In this document: positions 34,244 to 44,034 of the stretch, piece after piece
Layout: every line of letters begins with the position of its first letter
How positions within the stretch are numbered: the stretch's first letter is position 1
Assembly: GCA_003165335.1 (NCBI GenBank)
Contig: PLTD01000141.1
Coordinates: forward strand, 27,300-72,047
DNA: 44,748 nt
Direction: 5' to 3'
Source: Rhodospirillales bacterium
GTDB taxonomy: Bacteria > Pseudomonadota > Alphaproteobacteria > BOG-932 > Roseiterribacteraceae
Made by a program: the position numbers and the translations under genes
Notes under the pieces: generated by a model
What the model saw: the letters and a program-made list of their open reading frames with translations, nothing else
Told to the model about the DNA's origin: nothing
The model's database searches: none

Positions 34244-34327
34244 CGCAGCAGCGGCCGCCTATTTTAACCATTGTCCTTTAGGCGCATGAGATATCTTATT
34301 CCCTGCCGCTAATTTCGAGTCTTGACC

Positions 34328-34942
34328 ATGCCCGATAATGGAGAACTGGTGCTGGGCCGCCAGGCCCTGAAATCGAAGAATACCCGTGAGAAAATCCTGC
34401 AATCGGCGATATCGCTGATTAAGGAAGGCGGGTACTCCTCGGCCAGTGCAAGCAAGATTGCCGAACGCGCAGGCATGACCTGGGGTGCGGCTCAGCATCA
34501 TTTCGGATCGAAGGACGAAATCCTCGATACGGTCATGATGCTTTCTCATGAGAAGTTCACGGCCCTGATGGCAACTCCGGACCTACGCCAGGGGTCGCTT
34601 TCAGACCGGGTCGACCTGTTCGTCGACCGCATGTGGGAACATTACCAGGGCGACCTCTACCTCGCTTCCCAAGAAATCCTTCTGGCCAGCCGCACGGTCG
34701 ACCCGCCATCCACGAAGGTCGCAATGTTCGAACGGACCGCCCGCGAACATATCGAAACATTACGCGAGATCTTTTTCGACACGGAGTTGGACGACGAACA
34801 TATTCGGGAGGCGCTGGTTTTCATCCACTGCCTTCTGACCGGACTGGCGATTGAAAAGGTCCTGGAGACCGAAATCCGCAACGCCGATCGCCATATTCGT
34901 CGCGGCAAGCTGATGCTTCTCACAATTTTGAGCAATATCTGA
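34328..34942 (+). CDS. TetR-family regulator (second)
   Basis: 204 residues from the ATG at 34328; the TTG at 34322 lies two codons upstream. The helix-turn-helix at about 18-62 reads REKILQSAISLIKEGGYSSA then KIAERAGMTWGAAQHHFGSKDE. The C-terminal ligand domain is helical and unlike KstR2. It is transcribed away from the SnoaL/LLM 4 operon, and the shared AT-rich motif links it to the LLM 5/P450 operon. It ends in a 10-bp stem bidirectional terminator whose left arm overlaps the stop codon. Confidence 0.9.
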   Translation: MPDNGELVLGRQALKSKNTREKILQSAISLIKEGGYSSASASKIAERAGMTWGAAQHHFGSKDEILDTVMMLSHEKFTALMATPDLRQGSLSDRVDLFVDRMWEHYQGDLYLASQEILLASRTVDPPSTKVAMFERTAREHIETLREIFFDTELDDEHIREALVFIHCLLTGLAIEKVLETEIRNADRHIRRGKLMLLTILSNI

Positions 34943-34978: not shown

Positions 34979-35416
34979 CTATTTCTGGTAGGCCTCAGAA
35001 ACATCCGGGGCAAAGAAGTCCATTCCGGCCGGAACCGAAGCGCTGGATTCATCCCAGAAAGCCCGCAAGCTCGTAATCTTTCCCGCGTCGTTCAATACCG
35101 CATATTCGACGACGGACAGGTCAAGCCCCTGATTGGCTGCCGGTACACGCACCTGCATGGTGAAACGCAGAATGCCCTCATTCGCGCAGGCGCGGATTTC
35201 TTCCAGAACCGGTGTGACTTCGCGCGCTACGCCTTGATGCGCAAATTCCCAGAACTTCCCGATCGCTTCCCGGCCTTTGAATTCCGGCGTGCCGACGGGA
35301 TCGCAGAAAGCGGCATCCTCAGCGAACAGCGACAAGAGCAGCGCTTTGTCATTGGTGGCCCATGCCTTGATGTATTGCTCAAGGGCGTGGCGCACGTCTT
35401 TGGGTGTCGCACTCAT
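34979..35416 (-). CDS. SnoaL-like/NTF2-fold protein (copy 2)
   Basis: 145 residues from the ATG at 35416 (MSATPKDVRHALEQYI), with GGAAGGA eight bases upstream; the frame is open further but that part is shadow. NTF2 cone: DKALLLSLFAEDAAFCDPVG, GREAIGKFWEFA, VLNDAGKITSLRAFWDESS. It belongs to the nuclear-transport-factor-2/ketosteroid-isomerase-like superfamily; sequence alone does not prove isomerase activity. It is the last gene of the operon 38985-34979 and is not as close to copies 1 and 3 as they are to each other. Confidence 0.85.
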   Translation of the reverse strand: MSATPKDVRHALEQYIKAWATNDKALLLSLFAEDAAFCDPVGTPEFKGREAIGKFWEFAHQGVAREVTPVLEEIRACANEGILRFTMQVRVPAANQGLDLSVVEYAVLNDAGKITSLRAFWDESSASVPAGMDFFAPDVSEAYQK

Positions 35417-35441
35417 TCTGAAATTCCTTCCTGCTTGTTGA

Positions 35442-35771
35442 TCATTCGCCGATCGACTGATGGGACGGCAGCCCAACCACGATCCCATCCAACGCTTCGG
35501 TCACCACGACTTGGCATCCCAGCCTGCTCTCCGGCCGCCGATCCGAGGCGCGCTCCAGCATTGCAAGCTCGCCCTCGGATGGCGGGGAGAGTTTAGCCGC
35601 CCATTCGCCGCCGATATAGCAATGACAGGTAGCGCAAGAACAGATACCGCCACATAGCCCGATAATACCCGGCACCTCGTTCAGTATCGACCCTTCCATC
35701 AAGCTGAGCTGAGGATCGACTTCTACCGTATGCGCGGTTCCGTCTGCTTCTACATAAGTAACTTTAGGCAA
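35442..35771 (-). CDS. 2Fe-2S ferredoxin, adrenodoxin type
   Basis: 109 residues from a TTG at 35771 (read MPKVTYVEADG), with GAGGA seven bases upstream; no ATG or GTG exists at this place and the longer frame upstream has no family similarity. The cluster cysteines are C40, C46, C49 and C86 (LCGGICSCATCHC and RLGCQV), the C-x5-C-x2-C...C pattern of adrenodoxin, putidaredoxin and terpredoxin. It transfers electrons to P450s. No ferredoxin reductase gene is in the window. It may serve the CYP51-like P450 at 41454 or another oxygenase elsewhere. Confidence 0.87.
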   Translation of the reverse strand: MPKVTYVEADGTAHTVEVDPQLSLMEGSILNEVPGIIGLCGGICSCATCHCYIGGEWAAKLSPPSEGELAMLERASDRRPESRLGCQVVVTEALDGIVVGLPSHQSIGE

Positions 35772-35878
35772 CTTGAAGTCCTCGCACTGGGGTAAAGCTG
35801 ACCGGGGAACGGGCGGAACCGCGCACTGTCGACAGATGCATGCACGGGAGCGCGATTTCGCAAACCATCCCACATGCC

Positions 35879-36685
35879 TCAGGGATTGGCGGCGCGGGCA
35901 GCATAAAGCGTCTCCGCATATTGCTGCCGGGACATGGGCTTGTTCGGCCTGATCTCCACGAAATCGAAGGCGATACCGGCAGGTAGTTCGAAGCAGTTGG
36001 CGATCGCCTCGCCCACAGTCTCCGCAGCCATCGTTCCATCGAAAGTCGGTGACCGGCGCAGCCACTCGCCGAAGGCAACCGCCGCAACTTCCGGCGCCCA
36101 GCCGGACCCGAAAGCGGTTTCGGTTCCCCCTGGGCTGAGTACGGTGACGCCGATGTTGTCTGCCTTCACCTCGTCTCGCAAATCGACGGTGAACCGCTCC
36201 AGCGCCGCCTTTGTCGCCGAATAGATCGACATATAGGCGAATTCGTCCAGGTGCCGTGCCGAGGCCGAACTGACATTGAGTATCCGCCCTCCGCCCCGTC
36301 GCCGAAAATGAGGGATGACCGCCTGGCAGCCATAGATCGCGGCCAGGAGATTCACATTGACCTGGGTGGTCACCTCCGCTGGTTTCAGCGCCTCGATGGA
36401 ACTGGCAAGCGACAGGCCGGCATTATTGACCAGGCCATCCAACCCGCCGAGCGCATCCGCCGATCGGTCTATGGCGGCAATCAGAGCGTCGCGATCCGCA
36501 ACGTCAACTGCGACCGTCAGCGCGCCGTTACCAATGGATTTCGCCGCTGCCTCCAGTGCTGCCGTGTCTCGCCCGAACAGCGCTACCCTGCCGCCCCGCT
36601 TGCCCAGCGCCCTTGCCGCCGCCAGCCCGATACCGCGAGACGCCCCGGTAACGATATAGGTACGTCCTGCCAGAGAATCGCTCAT
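35879..36685 (-). CDS. SDR-family oxidoreductase
   Basis: 268 residues. TGASRGIG (13-20), NNAG (87-90), S140 region NVSSASA, Y155 and K159 (IYSATKAAL). The segment after the catalytic residues (VTVLSPGGTETAF...NKPMSRQQYAETL) is longer than in FabG and lacks its terminal GG loop, so it is of the extended-tail classical type. D40 (FGRDTAAL) suggests a mixed cofactor preference. It overlaps the ALDH stop (ATGA) and thus is coupled to it; it probably oxidises an alcohol that the ALDH then takes on. A 107-base gap follows before the ferredoxin gene. Confidence 0.9.
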   Translation of the reverse strand: MSDSLAGRTYIVTGASRGIGLAAARALGKRGGRVALFGRDTAALEAAAKSIGNGALTVAVDVADRDALIAAIDRSADALGGLDGLVNNAGLSLASSIEALKPAEVTTQVNVNLLAAIYGCQAVIPHFRRRGGGRILNVSSASARHLDEFAYMSIYSATKAALERFTVDLRDEVKADNIGVTVLSPGGTETAFGSGWAPEVAAVAFGEWLRRSPTFDGTMAAETVGEAIANCFELPAGIAFDFVEIRPNKPMSRQQYAETLYAARAANP

Positions 36686-38145
36686 GCCGGGATAGCCACG
36701 GACTTCGTCTGGAGATACTCCTCGAAACCCTCGATCCCCATTTCGCGGCCTATCCCGCTCTGCTTATAGCCGCCGAATGGCGTATCCGCCGCAAAGTAGT
36801 TCCCGCCGTTCACAGAATAGGTCCCGGTGCGAATCCGCCGTGCGACCGCAAGTGCACGCTTGTTTGAGGCCGAGGCCACGCCGCCGGACAGACCGAAGAT
36901 CGAATCATTGGCGATTCTGACTGCATCGTCGTCGCCATCATGCGGGATCACGACCAGAACCGGTCCGAAGATTTCCTCCTGGGCAATCCGCATCCCGTTG
37001 TGAACATCGGCAAACACGGTCGGCTGGACATAAAAGCCCTTCAGCCCCTCCGGCACGCCTCCGCCGGTAACGAGCCGCGCACCTTCTTCTTGGCCGATTT
37101 TGACATATCCCAAAACCCGCTCGCGCTGCCGCTCGGAAATCAGCGGCCCCATGATCTGATGTTCACTGGTCGGGTCTGTGTATGGGAAAGCCTCGAACGC
37201 CGTCTTGAGCATTCCGATCGCTTCCTCATAGCGCGCCCGAGGGACCAGCAGCCGGGTGAAACTCGCGCAGCCCTGGCCGGCGTGATACAGCACGAAGAAA
37301 GCCGAGGTCGGGATCACCCGCTCGAAATCGGCATCGTCCAGCACGATGAAGGCGGACTTGCCGCCCAATTCCAGAAAGACCTTTTTTACCTGTTCCGACG
37401 CCACGGCCATGATTCTGCGGCCGACGCCGGTCGATCCGGTAAAGGAAATCATATCGACACGCGGGTCGACCACCAGCTGTTCCCCGACTGCCGCCGGCAT
37501 GGCGCTGGTGATGACATTGAATACGCCCGGCGGCATATCGGTCTTGTCTGCGATTTCGGCCAGCACGGTCGCCAGCCAAGGCGTTTCCGGCGCGGGCTTC
37601 AATATGACGGTGCAGCCGGCTGCGAGAGCCGGAAAGCACTTTGCCAAATTGATTTGCAAGGGCACGTTCCATGGCGTGATCGCGCCGACAACGCCCGCTG
37701 CCTCTTTCCAGACCAGCCGGCGACTGGGGACGCCCATCGTATTGGCAACCGGCAATTCTCGCTCGAACGCGAATGTTCTCAACGTCTCCAGAACGAAATC
37801 GACGAAGCTTATCGGGGCGTCGCACTGCGGGCCGGCGAGGCAGCCGACCGGCGAGCCGGCCTCGGCCATGGCCATGGCCTTGATCCGCTCGCGATTGGCA
37901 TGCAACCCCTCGCGGAACTGGGTAAGAACCTTCAGTCTAAGCTCCCGGTCGGTCGACCAGGTGCTGCCATCGAACGCGCGGCGCGCCGCGGCGATGGCCG
38001 CATCCATGTCCTCGGTGGAACCGTCAGCCGCATAACCGATCACTTCGCCGGTCGTCGGGCCGATATTGGGATATTTTTTTCCACTCTTGGCAGGCACAAA
38101 CCTGCCGTCGATATAGAGCAGCGAATCTTCGAAACTCGTCATCAT
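36682..38145 (-). CDS. Aldehyde dehydrogenase
   Basis: 487 residues, normal NAD(P)-ALDH length. Key residues: N160 in GAITPWNVP, K183 in ILKPAPETP, E259 in FLELGGKSA, catalytic C293 in HAGQGCASFTR, and the late GGYKQSGIGREMG motif. Oxidises an aldehyde to a carboxylic acid, which one of the CoA ligases could then activate. The start is ATG at 38145 or the next Met codon at 38142; the previous gene stops at 38146-38148. It is located between the 3-hydroxyisobutyrate-type dehydrogenase and the SDR. Confidence 0.93.
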   Translation of the reverse strand: MMTSFEDSLLYIDGRFVPAKSGKKYPNIGPTTGEVIGYAADGSTEDMDAAIAAARRAFDGSTWSTDRELRLKVLTQFREGLHANRERIKAMAMAEAGSPVGCLAGPQCDAPISFVDFVLETLRTFAFERELPVANTMGVPSRRLVWKEAAGVVGAITPWNVPLQINLAKCFPALAAGCTVILKPAPETPWLATVLAEIADKTDMPPGVFNVITSAMPAAVGEQLVVDPRVDMISFTGSTGVGRRIMAVASEQVKKVFLELGGKSAFIVLDDADFERVIPTSAFFVLYHAGQGCASFTRLLVPRARYEEAIGMLKTAFEAFPYTDPTSEHQIMGPLISERQRERVLGYVKIGQEEGARLVTGGGVPEGLKGFYVQPTVFADVHNGMRIAQEEIFGPVLVVIPHDGDDDAVRIANDSIFGLSGGVASASNKRALAVARRIRTGTYSVNGGNYFAADTPFGGYKQSGIGREMGIEGFEEYLQTKSVAIPA

Positions 38146-38985
38146 TTACCTGCTTGTGAGACCGGCACGAATGAGTTGGCGGACCGTCTCGGTCCCTTTG
38201 ATTTCGAACCCGACGTCTTTGGCAAAGGCCAATGCGAAATCGAGGTCCTTCTCGCCTAAACCGGCGGTCGCATCCTTGAATGCCAAATAGGCATCCTGCC
38301 CCATGCGTGCCGGGCCCGTACTGCAAAAATCCAGATACTGGCCCATCGCCGTCGTCAGGTTGCCGTTAGAGGCCATCACCTCGCGCAGGACCTTCTCGTC
38401 GAGCCCTCCGGCGATCGCCAGGCCGACGCCCTCGATGGCGGCCAGCAACTGCATATAAGTCACCAGATTGTTGCAGAGCTTAAGGGCCATCCCCATGCCG
38501 GTGCCGCCGGCATGGATGATTGTCCCGGAAAAGGCCTCCAACATCGGTTTTACGCGAGCGAACTGCTCCCCATCCCCTCCGACCATCGCCACCAGCGTGC
38601 GGGCCGCGGCCCCCATCGGTCCACCCGACACTGCCGCATCGAGAACATGCACGCCTTTGGCCGCCGCGATTTCCGCCAGCGTGCGAACCGTGGCCGGGCG
38701 CACCGTGCTGTGAATGGCGATGATGCTGCCGGGCTTCAGCGTTTCGAGCAGACCGCCGGGTCCGGTTACGACCGCGGTGACATCCGCGTCATGGCGGACG
38801 CAAATCCCGACCTGTTCAACATCGCGCCCAAGATCCGCGGGCGACGATGCGATTCGTGCCTTGCCCGCGAAAGCCGCAGTCGCGGCTTCGGATACGTCGA
38901 ATACGGTCAGCGTGAACGGCGGCTGTGCGAGCTGTTCGGCCATCGGCTTGCCGATATTGCCCACGCCGATAAAACCAACTTTCAT
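38146..38985 (-). CDS. 3-hydroxyisobutyrate dehydrogenase-family protein
   Basis: 279 residues. Rossmann motif GFIGVGNIGKPMA (4-16), substrate-binding DAAVSGGPMGA (116-126) and the catalytic lysine K169 in GMALKLCNNL. The family oxidises beta-hydroxy acids (3-hydroxyisobutyrate, tartronate semialdehyde, 6-phosphogluconate) with NAD(P). First gene of the operon 38985-34979. Upstream 38986-39105 shows no copy of either operator motif, so this unit may be regulated differently. Confidence 0.9.
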   Translation of the reverse strand: MKVGFIGVGNIGKPMAEQLAQPPFTLTVFDVSEAATAAFAGKARIASSPADLGRDVEQVGICVRHDADVTAVVTGPGGLLETLKPGSIIAIHSTVRPATVRTLAEIAAAKGVHVLDAAVSGGPMGAAARTLVAMVGGDGEQFARVKPMLEAFSGTIIHAGGTGMGMALKLCNNLVTYMQLLAAIEGVGLAIAGGLDEKVLREVMASNGNLTTAMGQYLDFCSTGPARMGQDAYLAFKDATAGLGEKDLDFALAFAKDVGFEIKGTETVRQLIRAGLTSR

Positions 38986-39105
38986 GGATCAATTCCCCGT
39001 CCGCAGTTCTCTGCGATATTGCCAAGGTCCGAATTTCTACGTCAGCCGGCCCGCCCGCGAAACATAGCGCATGCCACTTTATCGGCCATACACCCTCGGA
39101 TGGGC

Positions 39106-39133
39106 CAAAAACATCCGCGCTGCTTCGGATGTT
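39106..39133 (-). terminator. Rho-independent terminator after the CMD gene
   Basis: Read on the minus strand: AACATCCG, loop AAGCAGCG, CGGATGTT, then TTT. The stem of eight perfect pairs (39110-39117 with 39126-39133) is followed by a T run (complement of 39106-39110). The right arm overlaps the TAA stop at 39132-39134. It closes the LLM 5/P450 operon. Confidence 0.75.
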
Positions 39134-39524
39134 ATCCGGCGGAAGATTTTGCCTTTTTCTCCACCTCCGCCAGAACGCGCTGGGTCACGTAGCGCATCCG
39201 GGTCGCCTTGGGATAACCGACATAATAAGGCAGGATGACGACCAGCTCCCGAATATCCGCCGGCGTAAGCTCACCCTTGTGGAGCGCGGCGCGAACCTGG
39301 ATTTCGAACGTGGCGTCCTCCGCCTGGGCCGCGATCATGCCCATCACGAACAGGCGGCGGTCGCGGATCGACATCTGCGGCCGGGACCAGACTTCGGAAA
39401 ACAGCTGGTCGACGTTATTGAAGAGGAAATCGTCATGCAGTTCTTCCGGTGGAAACGGCACAATCCCGCCGTACACGTCGTCGAAGAGTTTCATCCCGCG
39501 CTTACGGCGTTCGCTGTCTGACAT
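39132..39524 (-). CDS. Carboxymuconolactone decarboxylase-family protein
   Basis: 130 residues, the size of CMD/AhpD-type alpha-helical proteins. Features: SIRDRRLFVMGMIAAQ, FEIQVRAALHKGELTPADI and ILPYYVGYPKATRM. The AhpD CxxC pair is absent, so it is not a peroxidase; it resembles gamma-carboxymuconolactone decarboxylase, which removes CO2 from a lactone acid and keeps a conserved Glu/His set. Last gene of the LLM 5/P450 operon, directly before the terminator. Real substrate unknown. Confidence 0.88.
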   Translation of the reverse strand: MSDSERRKRGMKLFDDVYGGIVPFPPEELHDDFLFNNVDQLFSEVWSRPQMSIRDRRLFVMGMIAAQAEDATFEIQVRAALHKGELTPADIRELVVILPYYVGYPKATRMRYVTQRVLAEVEKKAKSSAG

Positions 39525-39620
39525 CTGGTCCCCTATAGCTGGTCGTGACGCATTAACCCGGCGTCCCTGCGATCAAAATCGGCAGGAAGCCGAAGAGACG
39601 GCCGGGTGGAATTGCTGAAG

Positions 39621-40013
39621 CTATTTCCCCAGCCAGAACTTGCGCGAGTGGTAGGAATCGACCGCCTCGGTGACGGCCTGGATCTTTCCGTCCTTGATCG
39701 TGAACAGGAAGAAGATGTTGTTGTGATAGACCCGGCCGTCGCGAAGCTTGGCGTCGACCACGGTGAGGACGGCGACGCGGTCGTCCTCTGCTGTCACCGA
39801 TTGATGGGTAAAGTTCAGCCCGCCGTCGAACTGGTTCAGCCCCTCCATCATCTTGGCCATCTGGGCCTTGGTGAACTCGCCCGCCATTTCCCAGTCGCCG
39901 GGCACCGACCAGATCGCGTCGTCGGCTAGAAGCGCCAACCCCTGAAACAGATCGCCCGATCGTTGCGCCGTAAAATAGGCTTCGACGAGCTTTTTATTGG
40001 CTTCGATACTCAT
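39621..40013 (-). CDS. SnoaL-like/NTF2-fold protein (copy 3)
   Basis: 130 residues. Close relative of the copy at 33786-34172: both share the pattern VTAExDRVAV, then DGRVYHN or GKTYNN, then FLFxxxDGKI and E-x2-DSxH. In both operons it stands with an LLM monooxygenase and a small alpha/beta-barrel protein. Pocket residues W (IWSVPGDW), D and H are kept between the copies. Function unproven; isomerisation or cyclisation/epoxide hydrolysis of the oxidised product is possible. Confidence 0.86.
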   Translation of the reverse strand: MSIEANKKLVEAYFTAQRSGDLFQGLALLADDAIWSVPGDWEMAGEFTKAQMAKMMEGLNQFDGGLNFTHQSVTAEDDRVAVLTVVDAKLRDGRVYHNNIFFLFTIKDGKIQAVTEAVDSYHSRKFWLGK

Positions 40014-40034
40014 GGTCAGCGCGCCCCCGAAGAA

Positions 40035-40796
40035 TTAATCGAAAAAGCCCTGACCGCCGTCCAGCGGGAGGGTCAGCGCGGTGATGTAGCGCGCATCGTT
40101 ACCGACCAGGAAAACCACCGCGCGCCCAATATCGAGCTCGCTGTCGCCGATCCTGCCCATCGGGATCGTATCCAGGAAAGCATTTGAGCCGACCGGGTCT
40201 CCTGCGATCCAGCCTTCCAAAGCCGGTGTCATCGCCAGGGGCGCCAGCGTGTTGACCCGGATATTCTCCTTCGCCCACTCATGGGCCGCCGCGCGCGACA
40301 GTGAGCGGATCGCCTGCTTGGCCGCAGCATAAACGCCATAGGCCTTGGCATCCCACCGCACGGCGGAAGAACTGGCCAGATTGATGATATTGCCGCCGCC
40401 GCGGGCCCGCATATGCGGGTGGACCGCCTTCATGAAGCGGAAGGTCGCGAAGGGGCCGGAATCGAAGGTTTCGGTGAATTGCTGGTCGGTCAAATTGTCG
40501 ATCAGGTCGTTGTGAACGATCTGGGCGTTGTTCACGAGAATATCGATCCCGCCGAATTCCTTCAGCGTACGCTCGACCGTGCTGGCGATATCAGCGGGCT
40601 TGCAGACGTCGCAGCCGACCGCGAGCGCCTTTCCGCCGAATTCCCGGATGGTCTTTGCCGTGCGCACGACTTTGGATTCGGTGCGGCCGGCCACGACCAA
40701 AGTCGCGCCTTCCTTCGCCAAGGCGAACGCAATGCCCTCGCCCACACCCTGGCCTGCGCCGGTCACGATCGCGACTTTTCCGTCTAGACTTCCCAT
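40035..40796 (-). CDS. SDR-family oxidoreductase
   Basis: 253 residues from the ATG at 40796, with GGGAGGA in front; a GTG four codons upstream is in frame but overlaps that site. TGAGQGVG (12-19), NNAQ in place of NNAG (89-92), S142 region LASSSAV, Y156 and K160 (VYAAAKQA), C-terminal ITALTLPLDGGQGFFD. The enzyme lies in the LLM 5/P450 operon, in the position expected for oxidation of the alcohol made by the P450. M. tuberculosis has an SDR gene near its CYP51 gene too. Confidence 0.9.
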   Translation of the reverse strand: MGSLDGKVAIVTGAGQGVGEGIAFALAKEGATLVVAGRTESKVVRTAKTIREFGGKALAVGCDVCKPADIASTVERTLKEFGGIDILVNNAQIVHNDLIDNLTDQQFTETFDSGPFATFRFMKAVHPHMRARGGGNIINLASSSAVRWDAKAYGVYAAAKQAIRSLSRAAAHEWAKENIRVNTLAPLAMTPALEGWIAGDPVGSNAFLDTIPMGRIGDSELDIGRAVVFLVGNDARYITALTLPLDGGQGFFD

Positions 40797-40926
40797 GATT
40801 CCTCCCACAATTCCCTATGGCCGCGGGGTCTACCTCGGCGGCCGTATATCAGCTTTATCGTTGCGGCTATCCAGCATAGGCGGCGTGGGATGCGCAAGTA
40901 GTCTCGTGCGCCGTACCCGGCGAAAC

Positions 40927-41226
40927 TTACCCCTCGAACTGCGCTGTCGAGTATGCGGCCATAAAATGACCCAACGCCGGATAGATGATGTCCATATGGG
41001 CCTGGTGCGTCGAATAGGCGGTGAAGGCGTCCTTGCTTTCGAACGTCGCCAGGATCGCATAGTCGGCATTGCCTTCGAGCAGCGCCAGATCCCGGCCGAC
41101 CTTCATCGAGGTGATCCCCGGAATGATCGACGGCAGCTTCAAATAGGCGGCATCGATCGCGGCTTGCGCGGCGGCATCCACCAACGCCGGGTCCTTATAG
41201 GTGATCAGGCACAGATGGTGCAGCAT
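40927..41226 (-). CDS. Dabb-family (stress-responsive alpha/beta barrel) protein
   Basis: 99 residues, one ferredoxin-like domain: MLHHLCLITYKDP, PGITSMKVGRDLALLEGNADYAILATFES and the H-x3-MDIIYPALG end. The Dabb fold forms dimers and includes small cyclases and isomerases such as olivetolic acid cyclase, though many members have no known function. The position beside an LLM and an SnoaL gene mirrors the EthD gene in the 31-34 kb operon. Its start is three bases from the ferredoxin stop. Confidence 0.87.
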   Translation of the reverse strand: MLHHLCLITYKDPALVDAAAQAAIDAAYLKLPSIIPGITSMKVGRDLALLEGNADYAILATFESKDAFTAYSTHQAHMDIIYPALGHFMAAYSTAQFEG

Positions 41227-41228
41227 GC

Positions 41229-41450
41229 TCAGTCGTCCTCATAAACGATGGTGATCGCGCCGTTCGGGCAATATTCCGCGGCGCCTTCCGCTTTCGACAA
41301 AAGCTCAGGCGCGGGGTTTTCCTGGATGACCTGCGCCTGGGGATAGGCCATGTCGGTATCGACTACCCGGAACAGTTCCGGGGCCTCGGCAAGGCAGACG
41401 CTATGCCCCTGGCAAAGCCCGAGATCGACCTTTATGCGAAACTTCCCCAT
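41229..41450 (-). CDS. 3Fe-4S ferredoxin, P450 partner type
   Basis: 73 residues. Cysteines C13 and C19 in LCQGHSVC and C61 in YCPNGAI, the C-x5-C...CP arrangement of 3Fe-4S ferredoxins that feed bacterial P450s, such as Rv0763c beside CYP51 in M. tuberculosis. It lies three bases downstream of the P450 stop, so it is surely the P450's redox partner. The needed reductase is not in this window. Confidence 0.92.
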   Translation of the reverse strand: MGKFRIKVDLGLCQGHSVCLAEAPELFRVVDTDMAYPQAQVIQENPAPELLSKAEGAAEYCPNGAITIVYEDD

Positions 41451-41453
41451 GCG

Positions 41454-42815
41454 TCAGTTCTTCCGCCGTTTATAGCGCAACCGGCAGGGGTCGCTCGGAC
41501 GCAGGATGAGCGTGGGCATCACCTCCCGATAGGCTTCGGCGGCCTGCGTCAGTTCGAAGTCATATTCGCGGAGCAGCGCGCAGAAGATCGCCCGCACCTG
41601 CAGCAGGGCAAAGGCATTGCCGATGCATTTATGCTTGCCGCCGCCAAACGCGATCGACGCGAACACATTCTCCGGCGCCGGACGCTTGGGGTCGAAGACA
41701 TAGGGGTTCGGGAAGAATTCCGGCAATTTATGCGCCACATGCGGGCACAACATCACGTTCTTGCCGACCTCGACGACATAGTCCTTGTAGTGAAATTCCT
41801 TAAGAACCCGACGGGAGATGGCGTTCAGCGGCGGATGCACGCGCAGCGATTCCCGCACGAACCCCTCCAGAAGCGGAATATCCCTCAGCGCATTCATGCT
41901 GAGCTCTTTGCTTTTGGCATAGAGCGCGTCGATCTCGGCCTTCAGTTCGGGAAAATATTGCGGGTTGCGCGCCATCTCGACCAAGGACCAGGCCGCGGTG
42001 TTCGAACTGGTGTGGTGGCCAGCGAACATGAACCAGATCACCATCCCGGTGATCTCGTTGTCGGTCAGCTTGGTCCCGTCCTCATACTGCGCGTCCATAT
42101 AGATCTGCAGCATGTCGTTGGAGACAACGCCGCGCTCGCGCCGCGACCTGACGGATGCCGATACCAGCTCCTGCAGTCGGGTGCGGGCCAGGTCGCGCTT
42201 GCGATAGGTATCCTTCTGCTGGTAGGGGTCCAGCAATGCCGCCGGGTCGAGCCCGCGGTCCAAATCGCCATACAATTCCTCGAATTCGTGCGTCAGCTGA
42301 TACCGCAGCTCCGACCCCAAAAGGCAATGGGTCGAGGTTTTCAGCGTCAGGTCGGTGAAGGCCTCATAGAAATCCTTCTCGCCTTCGTCACCCCAATCCT
42401 TGATGAATTCCTCGACCTCGCCGGCAACCAAAGCGGCGTAGTTGATCATCTTTTCATAGCGCAGCCCCTGATACTGGATGCGCAGCTGCTGCCTTTCGAT
42501 TTCGGGAGAGGCGCCAAACTGCACCCCCTCGCCGAATACCGGCACCATCATCTGATAGGCGGCGGCGGCATTCAGCTGTTCCTCCGGCGCGCGGAAGAAA
42601 GCCTCATGCGCCTCGGGCCCCACCATGAGGACCGTACGCAGCCCGCCCATATCGAATTCCGCCACCTCGCCGCATTCGTCGAAGGCGCGGTGGAGAAATT
42701 CGAGCGGCGTCGCGCAGAATTCCTCGTAATGGCCTGCCGGGCCGCTGGCGCCGCTTACGAAGGGGATCGGTCGGGACTTCTGTTTCTGCGAAGCCGGAAG
42801 CTCGATTGTCGTCAT
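41454..42815 (-). CDS. CYP51-like cytochrome P450
   Basis: 453 residues from the ATG at 42815, with GGGGGAAAGAC in front. I-helix motif MFAGHHTSSNTAAW (263-276), ExxR motif E322-S-L-R325, heme-binding FGGGKHKCIG with C397. The AGHHTS acid-alcohol pair, the APEEQLNAAAAYQMMVPVFG substrate-loop region (76-95) and the C-terminal LLREYDFELTQ...CRLRYKRRK closely follow M. tuberculosis CYP51, a sterol 14-alpha-demethylase. Differences are visible in the substrate loop: the Phe after the conserved Tyr is Met, and VFD at the loop end is QFG. Bacteria of this group do not normally make sterols, so a catabolic role on a sterol or triterpenoid-like substrate is more likely. It is coupled to the ferredoxin gene and lies behind LLM 5. 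Confidence 0.92.
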   Translation of the reverse strand: MTTIELPASQKQKSRPIPFVSGASGPAGHYEEFCATPLEFLHRAFDECGEVAEFDMGGLRTVLMVGPEAHEAFFRAPEEQLNAAAAYQMMVPVFGEGVQFGASPEIERQQLRIQYQGLRYEKMINYAALVAGEVEEFIKDWGDEGEKDFYEAFTDLTLKTSTHCLLGSELRYQLTHEFEELYGDLDRGLDPAALLDPYQQKDTYRKRDLARTRLQELVSASVRSRRERGVVSNDMLQIYMDAQYEDGTKLTDNEITGMVIWFMFAGHHTSSNTAAWSLVEMARNPQYFPELKAEIDALYAKSKELSMNALRDIPLLEGFVRESLRVHPPLNAISRRVLKEFHYKDYVVEVGKNVMLCPHVAHKLPEFFPNPYVFDPKRPAPENVFASIAFGGGKHKCIGNAFALLQVRAIFCALLREYDFELTQAAEAYREVMPTLILRPSDPCRLRYKRRKN

Positions 42816-42828
42816 TGTCTTTCCCCCG

Positions 42829-44034
42829 TCATTCCGCCGCTGCGGCCTTGGCGCGTTCGGCCTGTTCCGCCTCATGCTCGGCGATCGCCTTCTGGATACC
42901 GCCTATATAGGACGGCATGAACCGATCCGCATTCTCCGCCGCCCATTCCAGAGATGCCGTCCGGTTATTGTTCGAATGCTGGAACACCGGCATCACATGA
43001 CGGGCGAACAACTCATAGCTCTTTTTAGTCGCCGTAAAGTCCGCCGCATTATGCGCGAGCGACAGAAAAGTCTTAAACCCGCCGGACTGATCCTGAAGCT
43101 TATTGATATGCGCGATCAGATCGTCGGGCGTACCGACCACGCCGATGCCGAAGGCGCCCAACCCGCCACTGGTCCAGATATTCACCGCCTCCTCGAAAGA
43201 GCTGGCCGTCGGGAAGGCCGAGCCGCCGAATTTGCGGAAATATTTCATCATATCCATCAGACCGAAGCGCAGGTCCTCGAACGCCTGTTCGCGCGTTTCG
43301 GCGACATGGAACGGGGTGACGATGCGCCAATTCTCCCGGCTGACCGTCTTGCCGTGTTCTGCCGCCTTGGCCTCGCAAATCGACCAGTGATTGGCCAGTT
43401 GCTTGAACCCTTCGGGGCTGGATGCGGCCACAGAGAGCATGCCGATGCCGTATTTGCCGGCCGCCCTGGCGCCGGTCGGCGAGATTGCCGAGGCCACCGC
43501 CATCTCAACCGACGGATATTGATAAGGCAAAATCTGGCAGCGCGCCTCACGCAGGGTGAACCAATCGGTCTTATGGGTAACGGTCTCGCCGTTCAGCAGG
43601 CGCACGATGCAATCCAGCGATTCGTCCATCCTGCGGCGCAGGTCGGCGGGATCGACGCCCATCATATAGGCATCGGCGACAAGCTGCCCGGGCCCGACCC
43701 CGAAGATCAGCCGCCCGCGCATCTGGTGATCCAGCTGCGCGATCCGGTCGGCCAGCACCAGCGGATGATGATAGGATAATGAACTGACTCCAGTCGCCAG
43801 CCTGATATGTTTCGTGCGCTCGGCCGCCGTCGCCAGGAACACTTCCGGGGAGGCGATGCACTCATAGGCCCCGGAGTGATGCTCGCCGACCCAGGCCTCG
43901 TCATAGGTCAGTTCGTCGAGCCACTGGATCAGTGAGAAATCCCTCTCGAAGCCGAGCGTCGGATTCACCGTATTTCCATGGAACGGGGCGAAAAACGCCC
44001 CGAACTTCATGCGCCCAATTCCCTGCCCCATCAT
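42829..44034 (-). CDS. LLM-class flavin-dependent monooxygenase, limonene-monooxygenase-like (LLM 5)
   Basis: 401 residues from the ATG at 44034; an ATG at 44010 (MKFGAFFAP) is an alternative. Features: FGAFFAPFHGNTVNPTLGFERD, AWVGEHHSGAYECIASPE, TKHIRLATGVSSLSYHHP, DHQMRGRLIFGVGPGQLVADAYM. The APFH motif and the EHHSGA region resemble the limonene 1,2-monooxygenase-like subgroup of FMN monooxygenases; this supports the subgroup, not the substrate. The C-terminus is a long charged helix ending EQAERAKAAAAE. First gene of the P450 operon, with the AT-rich motif 46 bases upstream and a TAATAT -10-like sequence between. Confidence 0.88.
   Translation of the reverse strand: MMGQGIGRMKFGAFFAPFHGNTVNPTLGFERDFSLIQWLDELTYDEAWVGEHHSGAYECIASPEVFLATAAERTKHIRLATGVSSLSYHHPLVLADRIAQLDHQMRGRLIFGVGPGQLVADAYMMGVDPADLRRRMDESLDCIVRLLNGETVTHKTDWFTLREARCQILPYQYPSVEMAVASAISPTGARAAGKYGIGMLSVAASSPEGFKQLANHWSICEAKAAEHGKTVSRENWRIVTPFHVAETREQAFEDLRFGLMDMMKYFRKFGGSAFPTASSFEEAVNIWTSGGLGAFGIGVVGTPDDLIAHINKLQDQSGGFKTFLSLAHNAADFTATKKSYELFARHVMPVFQHSNNNRTASLEWAAENADRFMPSYIGGIQKAIAEHEAEQAERAKAAAAE

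Follow-up and report, generated by a model that had tools for sequence, protein, structure and literature searches.

The stretch analysed here (44,748 nucleotides of contig PLTD01000141.1, assembly GCA_003165335.1, Rhodospirillales bacterium; hereafter the window) carries on its minus strand a gene for a CYP51-like cytochrome P450 that is directly followed by a gene for a [3Fe-4S]-type ferredoxin. CYP51 is viewed as a P450 family that its conserved pocket confines to a single reaction. Comparison of sequences and modelled structure indicates that the window encodes a real, conserved CYP51-derived P450-ferredoxin pair with a changed substrate pocket, most likely engaged in sterol catabolism. 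The reading that we favour, and regard as probable, is that the two proteins form an oxygenase pair in the catabolism of exogenous methyl-sterols, possibly 3-oxo compounds.

Relationship of the P450 and the ferredoxin to CYP51

The P450, its ferredoxin and the gene preceding them lie where a first-pass annotation of the window had placed them:

41229-41450, minus strand: [3Fe-4S]-type ferredoxin with CXXHXXC ... CP motif, predicted dedicated redox partner (Fer4_15, 43 bits)
41454-42815, minus strand: CYP51-like cytochrome P450, 453 amino acids, AGHHTS motif, heme cysteine Cys397 (Pfam p450, 214 bits)
42829-44034, minus strand: luciferase-like (LLM) flavin- or F420-dependent oxidoreductase (Bac_luciferase, 158 bits; 71-79% identity to counterparts in other loci of the clade described below)

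The P450 start was assigned to the ATG at 42815, which follows gggggaaag; the listed open reading frame of 473 residues begins too early. Gaps of only 13 bases between the LLM and P450 genes and 3 bases between the P450 and ferredoxin genes indicate that the three are probably co-transcribed.

A phmmer search against solved structures returned Methylococcus capsulatus CYP51 as the best relative of the P450 (E 5e-124), followed by Mycobacterium tuberculosis CYP51 (~1e-107) and then by the Acanthamoeba, human and trypanosomatid CYP51s, a likeness far beyond chance at the sequence level. Identities over aligned columns are 45.2% to the M. capsulatus, 41.5% to the M. tuberculosis and 35.0% to the Acanthamoeba enzyme, the first two lying above the ~40% identity to a characterised CYP51 by which P450s are usually assigned to this family. 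Structure prediction, which the first-pass annotation had proposed as a check, yielded an AlphaFold2 model with pLDDT 90 and pTM 0.89 (43-sequence alignment). Its best structural match is 7jj1 (Z score 51.6, root-mean-square deviation 1.5 Å over 428 residues), and it aligns with the lanosterol-bound CYP51 7snm with a Z score of 51.5.

The hallmark segments reported in the first-pass annotation are all present (AGHHTSS, LRVHPPL and LLREYDF). The I-helix His before the conserved Thr (His268-Thr269) occurs in all 29 clade members. Three heme contacts described as invariant in CYP51, a Tyr in B', an Arg in β1-4 and a His in the heme bulge (PMC11089504), are retained in the window protein as Y87, R335 and H395; the heme-bulge His is replaced by Arg in 19 of the 29 members. 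Among solved structures, the ferredoxin part of the M. capsulatus CYP51 fusion matches the window ferredoxin best. The CQGHSVC ... CP sequence of the latter fits the pattern CXXHXXC(X)nCP known from [3Fe-4S] P450 ferredoxins of M. tuberculosis (PMC9868604), and its gene adjoins that of the P450, as for Rv0763c. The description of a CYP51-type ferredoxin immediately behind the P450 is thus confirmed.

A clade of related P450s

A scan of 84,980 species genomes yielded 49 loci. Among their P450s, 29 share the loop AYQ(M/F/Y)M(V/I)P(V/I)(F/Q)GxG(V/I)Q(Y/F)GA and are referred to here as the QYG type; they include both copies of the host genome and that of a sister genome, and are found in Halieaceae, Spongiibacteraceae, Croceicoccus (C. 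estronivorus) and the host genus. In the phylogeny, a further check proposed in the first-pass annotation, the 29 form one CYP51-related group with support of 82/91, and of 88/83 with the same groups when the substrate-recognition columns are removed. Outward of this group lie three divergent, partly myxococcal sequences and then three paralogs with the canonical motif VIFDA. The QYG type is sister to these paralogs at 82/100, but the outgroup branch (L001, length 10) is too long for rooting the tree. The fused M. capsulatus-type CYP51s form a separate group (96/96).

In each of three loci (L024, L025 and L038) a VIFDA-type P450, which has its own ferredoxin, shares the neighbourhood with a QYG-type P450; a short-chain dehydrogenase/reductase (SDR) resembling SdmB lies nearby. 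The presence of both types side by side suggests a division of labour. Elsewhere in the scan, alphaproteobacterial AGQHTS P450s (L015-L019) have an FAD monooxygenase and a protein resembling sterol C14-reductase as neighbours; in the one of these genomes tested (G068), squalene-epoxidase and cyclase matches adjoin the P450, which looks like true sterol synthesis. L029, from a metagenome-assembled genome titled Klebsiella pneumoniae, holds a Halieaceae-like steroid cluster, and its label is probably wrong.

Differences in the substrate pocket

The first-pass annotation deduced a changed substrate from two differences in the substrate loop, Phe to Met after the conserved Tyr and VFD to QFG. Both are real, as comparison of the window P450 (AYQMMVPVFGEGVQFGAS) with the M. 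tuberculosis enzyme (AYPFMTPIFGEGVVFDAS) demonstrates. However, these differences do not support the deduction on their own. The CYP51 of Acanthamoeba castellanii, a true obtusifoliol 14-demethylase with 100-fold selectivity for obtusifoliol over lanosterol, has the loop YQFSVPIFGPNVVYGAD, which also carries G in place of D; the D to G exchange is therefore not diagnostic, and it was dropped as evidence that the substrate is new. Two positions after the conserved Tyr lies a residue that, as Phe, sets the C4-monomethyl preference; it is M in the window protein and varies between M, F and Y in the clade, with the plant-type F (position 78) in ten members. Compared with the B'-C loop signature YxxF/L/IxxPxFGxxVxF/YD, the window P450 departs only by M for F/L/I and G for D. 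On the tree with pocket columns removed, D to G arises twice, once in Acanthamoeba, and the polar β1-4 strand once.

A changed pocket is nevertheless likely, judging from β1-4 and helix F''. Between the clade and canonical bacterial CYP51s, 18 columns switch residue class, and nine of these fall in substrate-recognition segments that make up 94 of the 434 columns (odds ratio 3.9, P 0.006), a test in which the analyst set the segment boundaries and relatedness is uncorrected, which tempers its weight for the favoured reading. The canonical β1-4 sequence ILLM becomes N-T/A-L/I-T/S throughout the clade. Residues I323, L324 and M326 of M. capsulatus CYP51 correspond to N331, A332 and S334 in the window protein, so the hydrophobic β1-4 lining beside the acceptor of the C3 hydroxyl is lost; this lining is a functional feature and not a formal criterion for the CYP51 name. 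Clade-wide, I323 is replaced by N, M326 by S or T, and Y186 by L, T or I, and V91 is also replaced. In the lanosterol-bound M. capsulatus CYP51 the C3 hydroxyl is bound by the L324 backbone and the Y186 hydroxyl. Since eukaryotic CYP51s likewise have no polar residue at the Y186 position, its loss alone is not decisive, and the polar β1-4 strand weighs more. Together, the two changes may reflect a substrate with a different A-ring end, for example a 3-oxo group.

These observations bear on two other readings. The P450 could be an ordinary CYP51, a sterol 14α-demethylase whose substrate is lanosterol or obtusifoliol scavenged from outside, a role that has been proposed in Mycobacterium, its pocket differences leaving the substrate unchanged. 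Identity above 40% to two solved bacterial CYP51s, the tolerance of the M. capsulatus enzyme for lanosterol, eburicol and obtusifoliol, the G of Acanthamoeba CYP51 and the plant-type F of ten members all agree with this; the clade-wide replacement of ILLM, Y186 and V91 speaks against it, as do the three genomes in which a canonical-motif paralog accompanies the QYG type, suggesting different jobs, and the lack of a close 8,14-reductase homologue in clade-only genomes (see below). We consider it unlikely. Slightly more credible, though still on the improbable side, is a neofunctionalised steroid hydroxylase that attacks another position, on a ring or the side chain, of cholesterol-, estrogen- or bile-acid-type compounds. 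The polar β1-4 pocket would fit such an enzyme, and Croceicoccus estronivorus, named for estrone use, has a clade member with neither KstD genes nor genes resembling cycloeucalenol cycloisomerase (CPI) nearby. CYP204A3 (9wat, released December 2025) demonstrates that a bacterial P450 outside CYP51 can have a CYP51-like fold: it aligns with the window model with a Z score of 45.2 at only 27% identity (a limited literature search found no paper on CYP204A). However, the overall identity to CYP51 and the strictly kept HHT of the I-helix speak against a hydroxylase of this kind, as do the CPI-like genes (a lead only) that most clade genomes also contain and that would suit cyclopropyl sterols with methyl groups.

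Operon and steroid-degradation context

The P450 and ferredoxin genes are part of an operon-like minus-strand run (34979-44034), with gaps of 2-13 bases separating the LLM, P450, ferredoxin and Dabb genes. Downstream of the ferredoxin gene the run contains:

40927-41226, minus strand: Dabb (stress-responsive A/B barrel) protein, kept in 10 related loci
40035-40799, minus strand: SDR oxidoreductase (profile match)
39621-40013, minus strand: SnoaL-like (NTF2-fold) protein (weak NTF2 match)
39132-39524, minus strand: CMD-like (carboxymuconolactone decarboxylase family) protein (Pfam match below cut-off)
38146-38985, minus strand: 3-hydroxyisobutyrate-dehydrogenase-like NAD-binding protein (profile match)
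36682-38145, minus strand: aldehyde dehydrogenase closest to the Rv0768 family (676 bits to TIGR04284, whose cut-off is 775; copies 60-64% identical in 7 related loci)
35879-36685, minus strand: SDR oxidoreductase (counterparts at 43-45% in related loci)
35442-35774, minus strand, start approximate: second ferredoxin, [2Fe-2S] (Fer2 profile match)
34979-35434, minus strand: SnoaL-like protein with ketosteroid-isomerase similarity (1ocv, E 1.8e-11)

Facing it tail to tail is:

34322-34942, plus strand: TetR regulator, of the same family as the P450-adjacent TetR of related loci (42-48% identity)

Profile matches thus bear out the placement of the pair between an LLM gene and SDR, SnoaL and CMD genes in a catabolic operon. 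The second ferredoxin sits in an operon with only one P450. The ketosteroid-isomerase-like protein may resemble Rv0760c. Positions 1160-33758 of the window are also catabolic in character, with four more luciferase-like oxidoreductases, two TauD dioxygenases, three AMP ligases, a reductase of the old yellow enzyme type and several SDRs.

Of the partners in related loci, the LLM protein is conserved best (found in 13 loci, at 71-79% in the top nine), followed by the aldehyde dehydrogenase, the ferredoxin, Dabb and TetR. The loci of Haliea, Parahaliea and their relatives hold KstD (NCBIfam 3-ketosteroid-delta-1-dehydrogenase model; 3-oxosteroid 1-dehydrogenase 7p18, 1e-164) together with Delta4-KSTD (4at0, 2e-92), a KshA-type Rieske protein, a PF04116 hydroxylase, an SdmB-like SDR and a PQQ dehydrogenase. 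The curated SdmA and SdmB models match weakly (65 and 73 bits against cut-offs of 600), and these genes are taken as relatives only. Outside the host genus, 7 of 26 QYG loci, several of them short, hold KstD or Delta4-KSTD. With 2-6 KstD genes in a genome of 3-5 Mb, a rough estimate is that ~2% of 20-kb stretches contain KstD; since the loci are related to one another, the comparison amounts to support and not to a test. Several KshA_C proteins are encoded in each of the clade genomes tested. Growth on cholesterol has been demonstrated for isolates of Halieaceae and Spongiibacteraceae (PMC5790920). Comparison with these loci thus suggests a role in steroid catabolism, and the first-pass proposal that a CYP51 relative and its own ferredoxin occur in catabolic surroundings is upheld.

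A non-steroid terpenoid (hopanoid, triterpenoid or meroterpenoid) would be the substrate if the steroid genes near the relatives were coincidental. The window operon has no steroid-specific gene, and the host, with a squalene-hopene-type cyclase and more than 20 P450 matches, has broad terpenoid capacity. KstD, KshA and SdmB-like genes nonetheless recur near separate clade members, and with KshA_C proteins present throughout the genomes tested this is the most improbable of the alternatives.

Host genome

The host genome (5.19 Mb, 265 contigs) belongs to an order and family with only five genomes in the collection, and its sister genome, with an ortholog at 88%, is labelled Rhodospirillales; the sphingomonad origin assumed in the first-pass annotation was rejected on these grounds. 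The annotation's view that the P450 does not serve sterol synthesis fits the host, where no match to squalene epoxidase was found. Its cyclase match is taken as squalene-hopene type. In G068, the positive control, genes of both families (epoxidase and cyclase) adjoin that of the P450. Weak epoxidase matches in other genomes are probably UbiH-type enzymes, as the E. coli control shows them too. The host further encodes four KstD homologues (the best at 63% to Parahaliea KstD) and ten KshA_C proteins. A second CYP51-like P450 (L011; L120:7105-8460), 75% identical to that of the window, has no adjacent ferredoxin and is flanked by a zinc-type dehydrogenase and a TIM-barrel isomerase-like gene, both named by inspection only.

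The step that would follow C14 attack

Canonical bacterial CYP51 genes are often followed by an NTF2-fold gene, and the one behind the fused CYP51s was taken, from position and fold, as the candidate 8,14-sterol reductase (Bsr). Its homologues reach 69-100% identity in canonical-CYP51 genomes and 41-45% in three genomes that also have the VIFDA type, and in G402. The QYG-only P450s either do not 14-demethylate or are served by another reductase, to judge from the remote matches described below. The window SnoaL proteins are not claimed as 8,14-sterol reductases, one being ketosteroid-isomerase-like and the other only a weak NTF2 match.

F420-dependence of the LLM proteins is possible, since F420 gamma-glutamyl ligase is encoded in all seven QYG genomes tested (G000, G001, G386, G390, G391, G393 and G396) against strong matches in ~15% of 385 genomes of the host's class. 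The nearest solved relatives of the window LLM protein include diketocamphane monooxygenase and bacterial luciferase, both of which are FMN enzymes.

Proteins resembling CPI were found with a query that we take to be the plant enzyme, and their identity is a lead only (blastp 8e-49 to 3e-30); they match no Pfam or NCBIfam model. Among 18 QYG genomes, 13 encode such a protein, one of them as a partial match; in the host (55%) its gene neighbours an LLM gene. All four genomes tested with the canonical fused type encode one as well, and none of the four gave a match to oxidosqualene cyclase. The genes (L119:7817-8659 in the host, L035:216-1091, L036:6714-7628 and others) often lie beside an LLM oxidoreductase and an SdmB-like SDR, in bacteria that show no sign of making sterols. 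If they encode true CPI, the natural substrates would be cyclopropyl methyl-sterols of plants and algae. Genomes of Zavarzinia, Stenotrophobium and Spongiibacter (L052, L063, L064 and L012) combine a fused CYP51-ferredoxin with a candidate Bsr and a CPI-like gene; they gave neither a match to oxidosqualene cyclase nor a strong one to squalene epoxidase, which suggests sterol modification without synthesis.

Proposed function

In the favoured reading, electrons would pass from NAD(P)H through a reductase encoded elsewhere to the [3Fe-4S] ferredoxin and on to the P450, which would serve the catabolism of an exogenous sterol-type substrate and not sterol synthesis. The steroid would be held as in CYP51, with its C/D-ring face over the heme, and oxidised there. 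That the substrate is a steroid is considered likely. The likeliest reaction would be three-step removal of the 14α-methyl group from methyl-sterols (obtusifoliol, lanosterol or cycloartenol derivatives), although C14 demethylation itself is somewhat doubtful. The A-ring end may differ from that of a plain 3β-hydroxy sterol; a 3-oxo intermediate is a tentative suggestion. The LLM protein, the SDRs and the aldehyde dehydrogenase would then process the product before ring degradation by KstD and KshA encoded elsewhere in the genome.

Several points weigh against this reading. The window operon contains no KstD, KshA or SdmB-like genes, and it is relatives and other contigs that provide the link to steroids. 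KstD lies within 10 kb in only about a quarter of the clade loci, many of them short, and none was found at Croceicoccus and several others. In 13 of the 29 members G takes the place of the helix-F acid of the proton relay, which is D in the window protein. For C14 demethylation in particular, QYG-only genomes show no close homologue of the candidate Bsr, only remote matches at 26-32%, that of the host being 32%.

A more elaborate version, which we regard as unlikely, is a separate catabolic CYP51 branch with a rebuilt A-ring pocket. It would belong to an undescribed bacterial route in which a CPI-like isomerase, SdmA/B-like C4 steps and the P450 prepare methyl-sterols of plant and algal type for steroid ring degradation by stripping them, and in which an F420-dependent LLM protein replaces the known 8,14-sterol reductase.

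Comparison with known systems and implications

The M. capsulatus CYP51-ferredoxin fusion (7jj1, 6mcw and 7snm) resembles the window system in sequence identity, fold (Z score 51), [3Fe-4S]-type ferredoxin, AGHHTS motif and heme contacts. The window system differs in its separate ferredoxin gene, its host without sign of sterol synthesis, its β1-4 strand, B'-C loop and Y186 position, and the lack of a close 8,14-sterol reductase homologue. M. tuberculosis CYP51B1 (Rv0764c) with the ferredoxin Rv0763c shares the adjacent ferredoxin gene and a host that degrades sterols and does not produce them. Its operon also contains an SDR, a TetR regulator and the Rv0768-like aldehyde dehydrogenase; the window operon adds LLM, Dabb, SnoaL, CMD and a second, [2Fe-2S] ferredoxin, and its P450 has a changed pocket.

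The first-pass annotation held that a degradative CYP51 relative would be new. That holds only in part: Lee et al. 2026 (PMC13277303) describe CYP51 with a cognate ferredoxin in sterol-degrading Mycobacteriales and in alpha- and gammaproteobacteria. Compared with the CYP51-Bsr system as given there, QYG-only genomes likewise pair CYP51 with a ferredoxin in users of outside sterols; however, they have no close Bsr homologue, the host included, and their P450 has a distinct pocket. No description of the QYG clade itself was found in a literature search of limited scope.

If the favoured reading is correct, a widespread bacterial clade in which the fold and heme machinery of CYP51 are retained while the A-ring end of the pocket is remodelled, in steroid consumers, would represent a natural experiment on breaking the CYP51 constraint. 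To our knowledge, 14-methylated sterols are hardly covered by known steroid-degradation pathways, and the clade would provide a handle on their removal in sea and soil. Its culturable members (Litorivivens lipolytica and Parahaliea species) make it directly testable.

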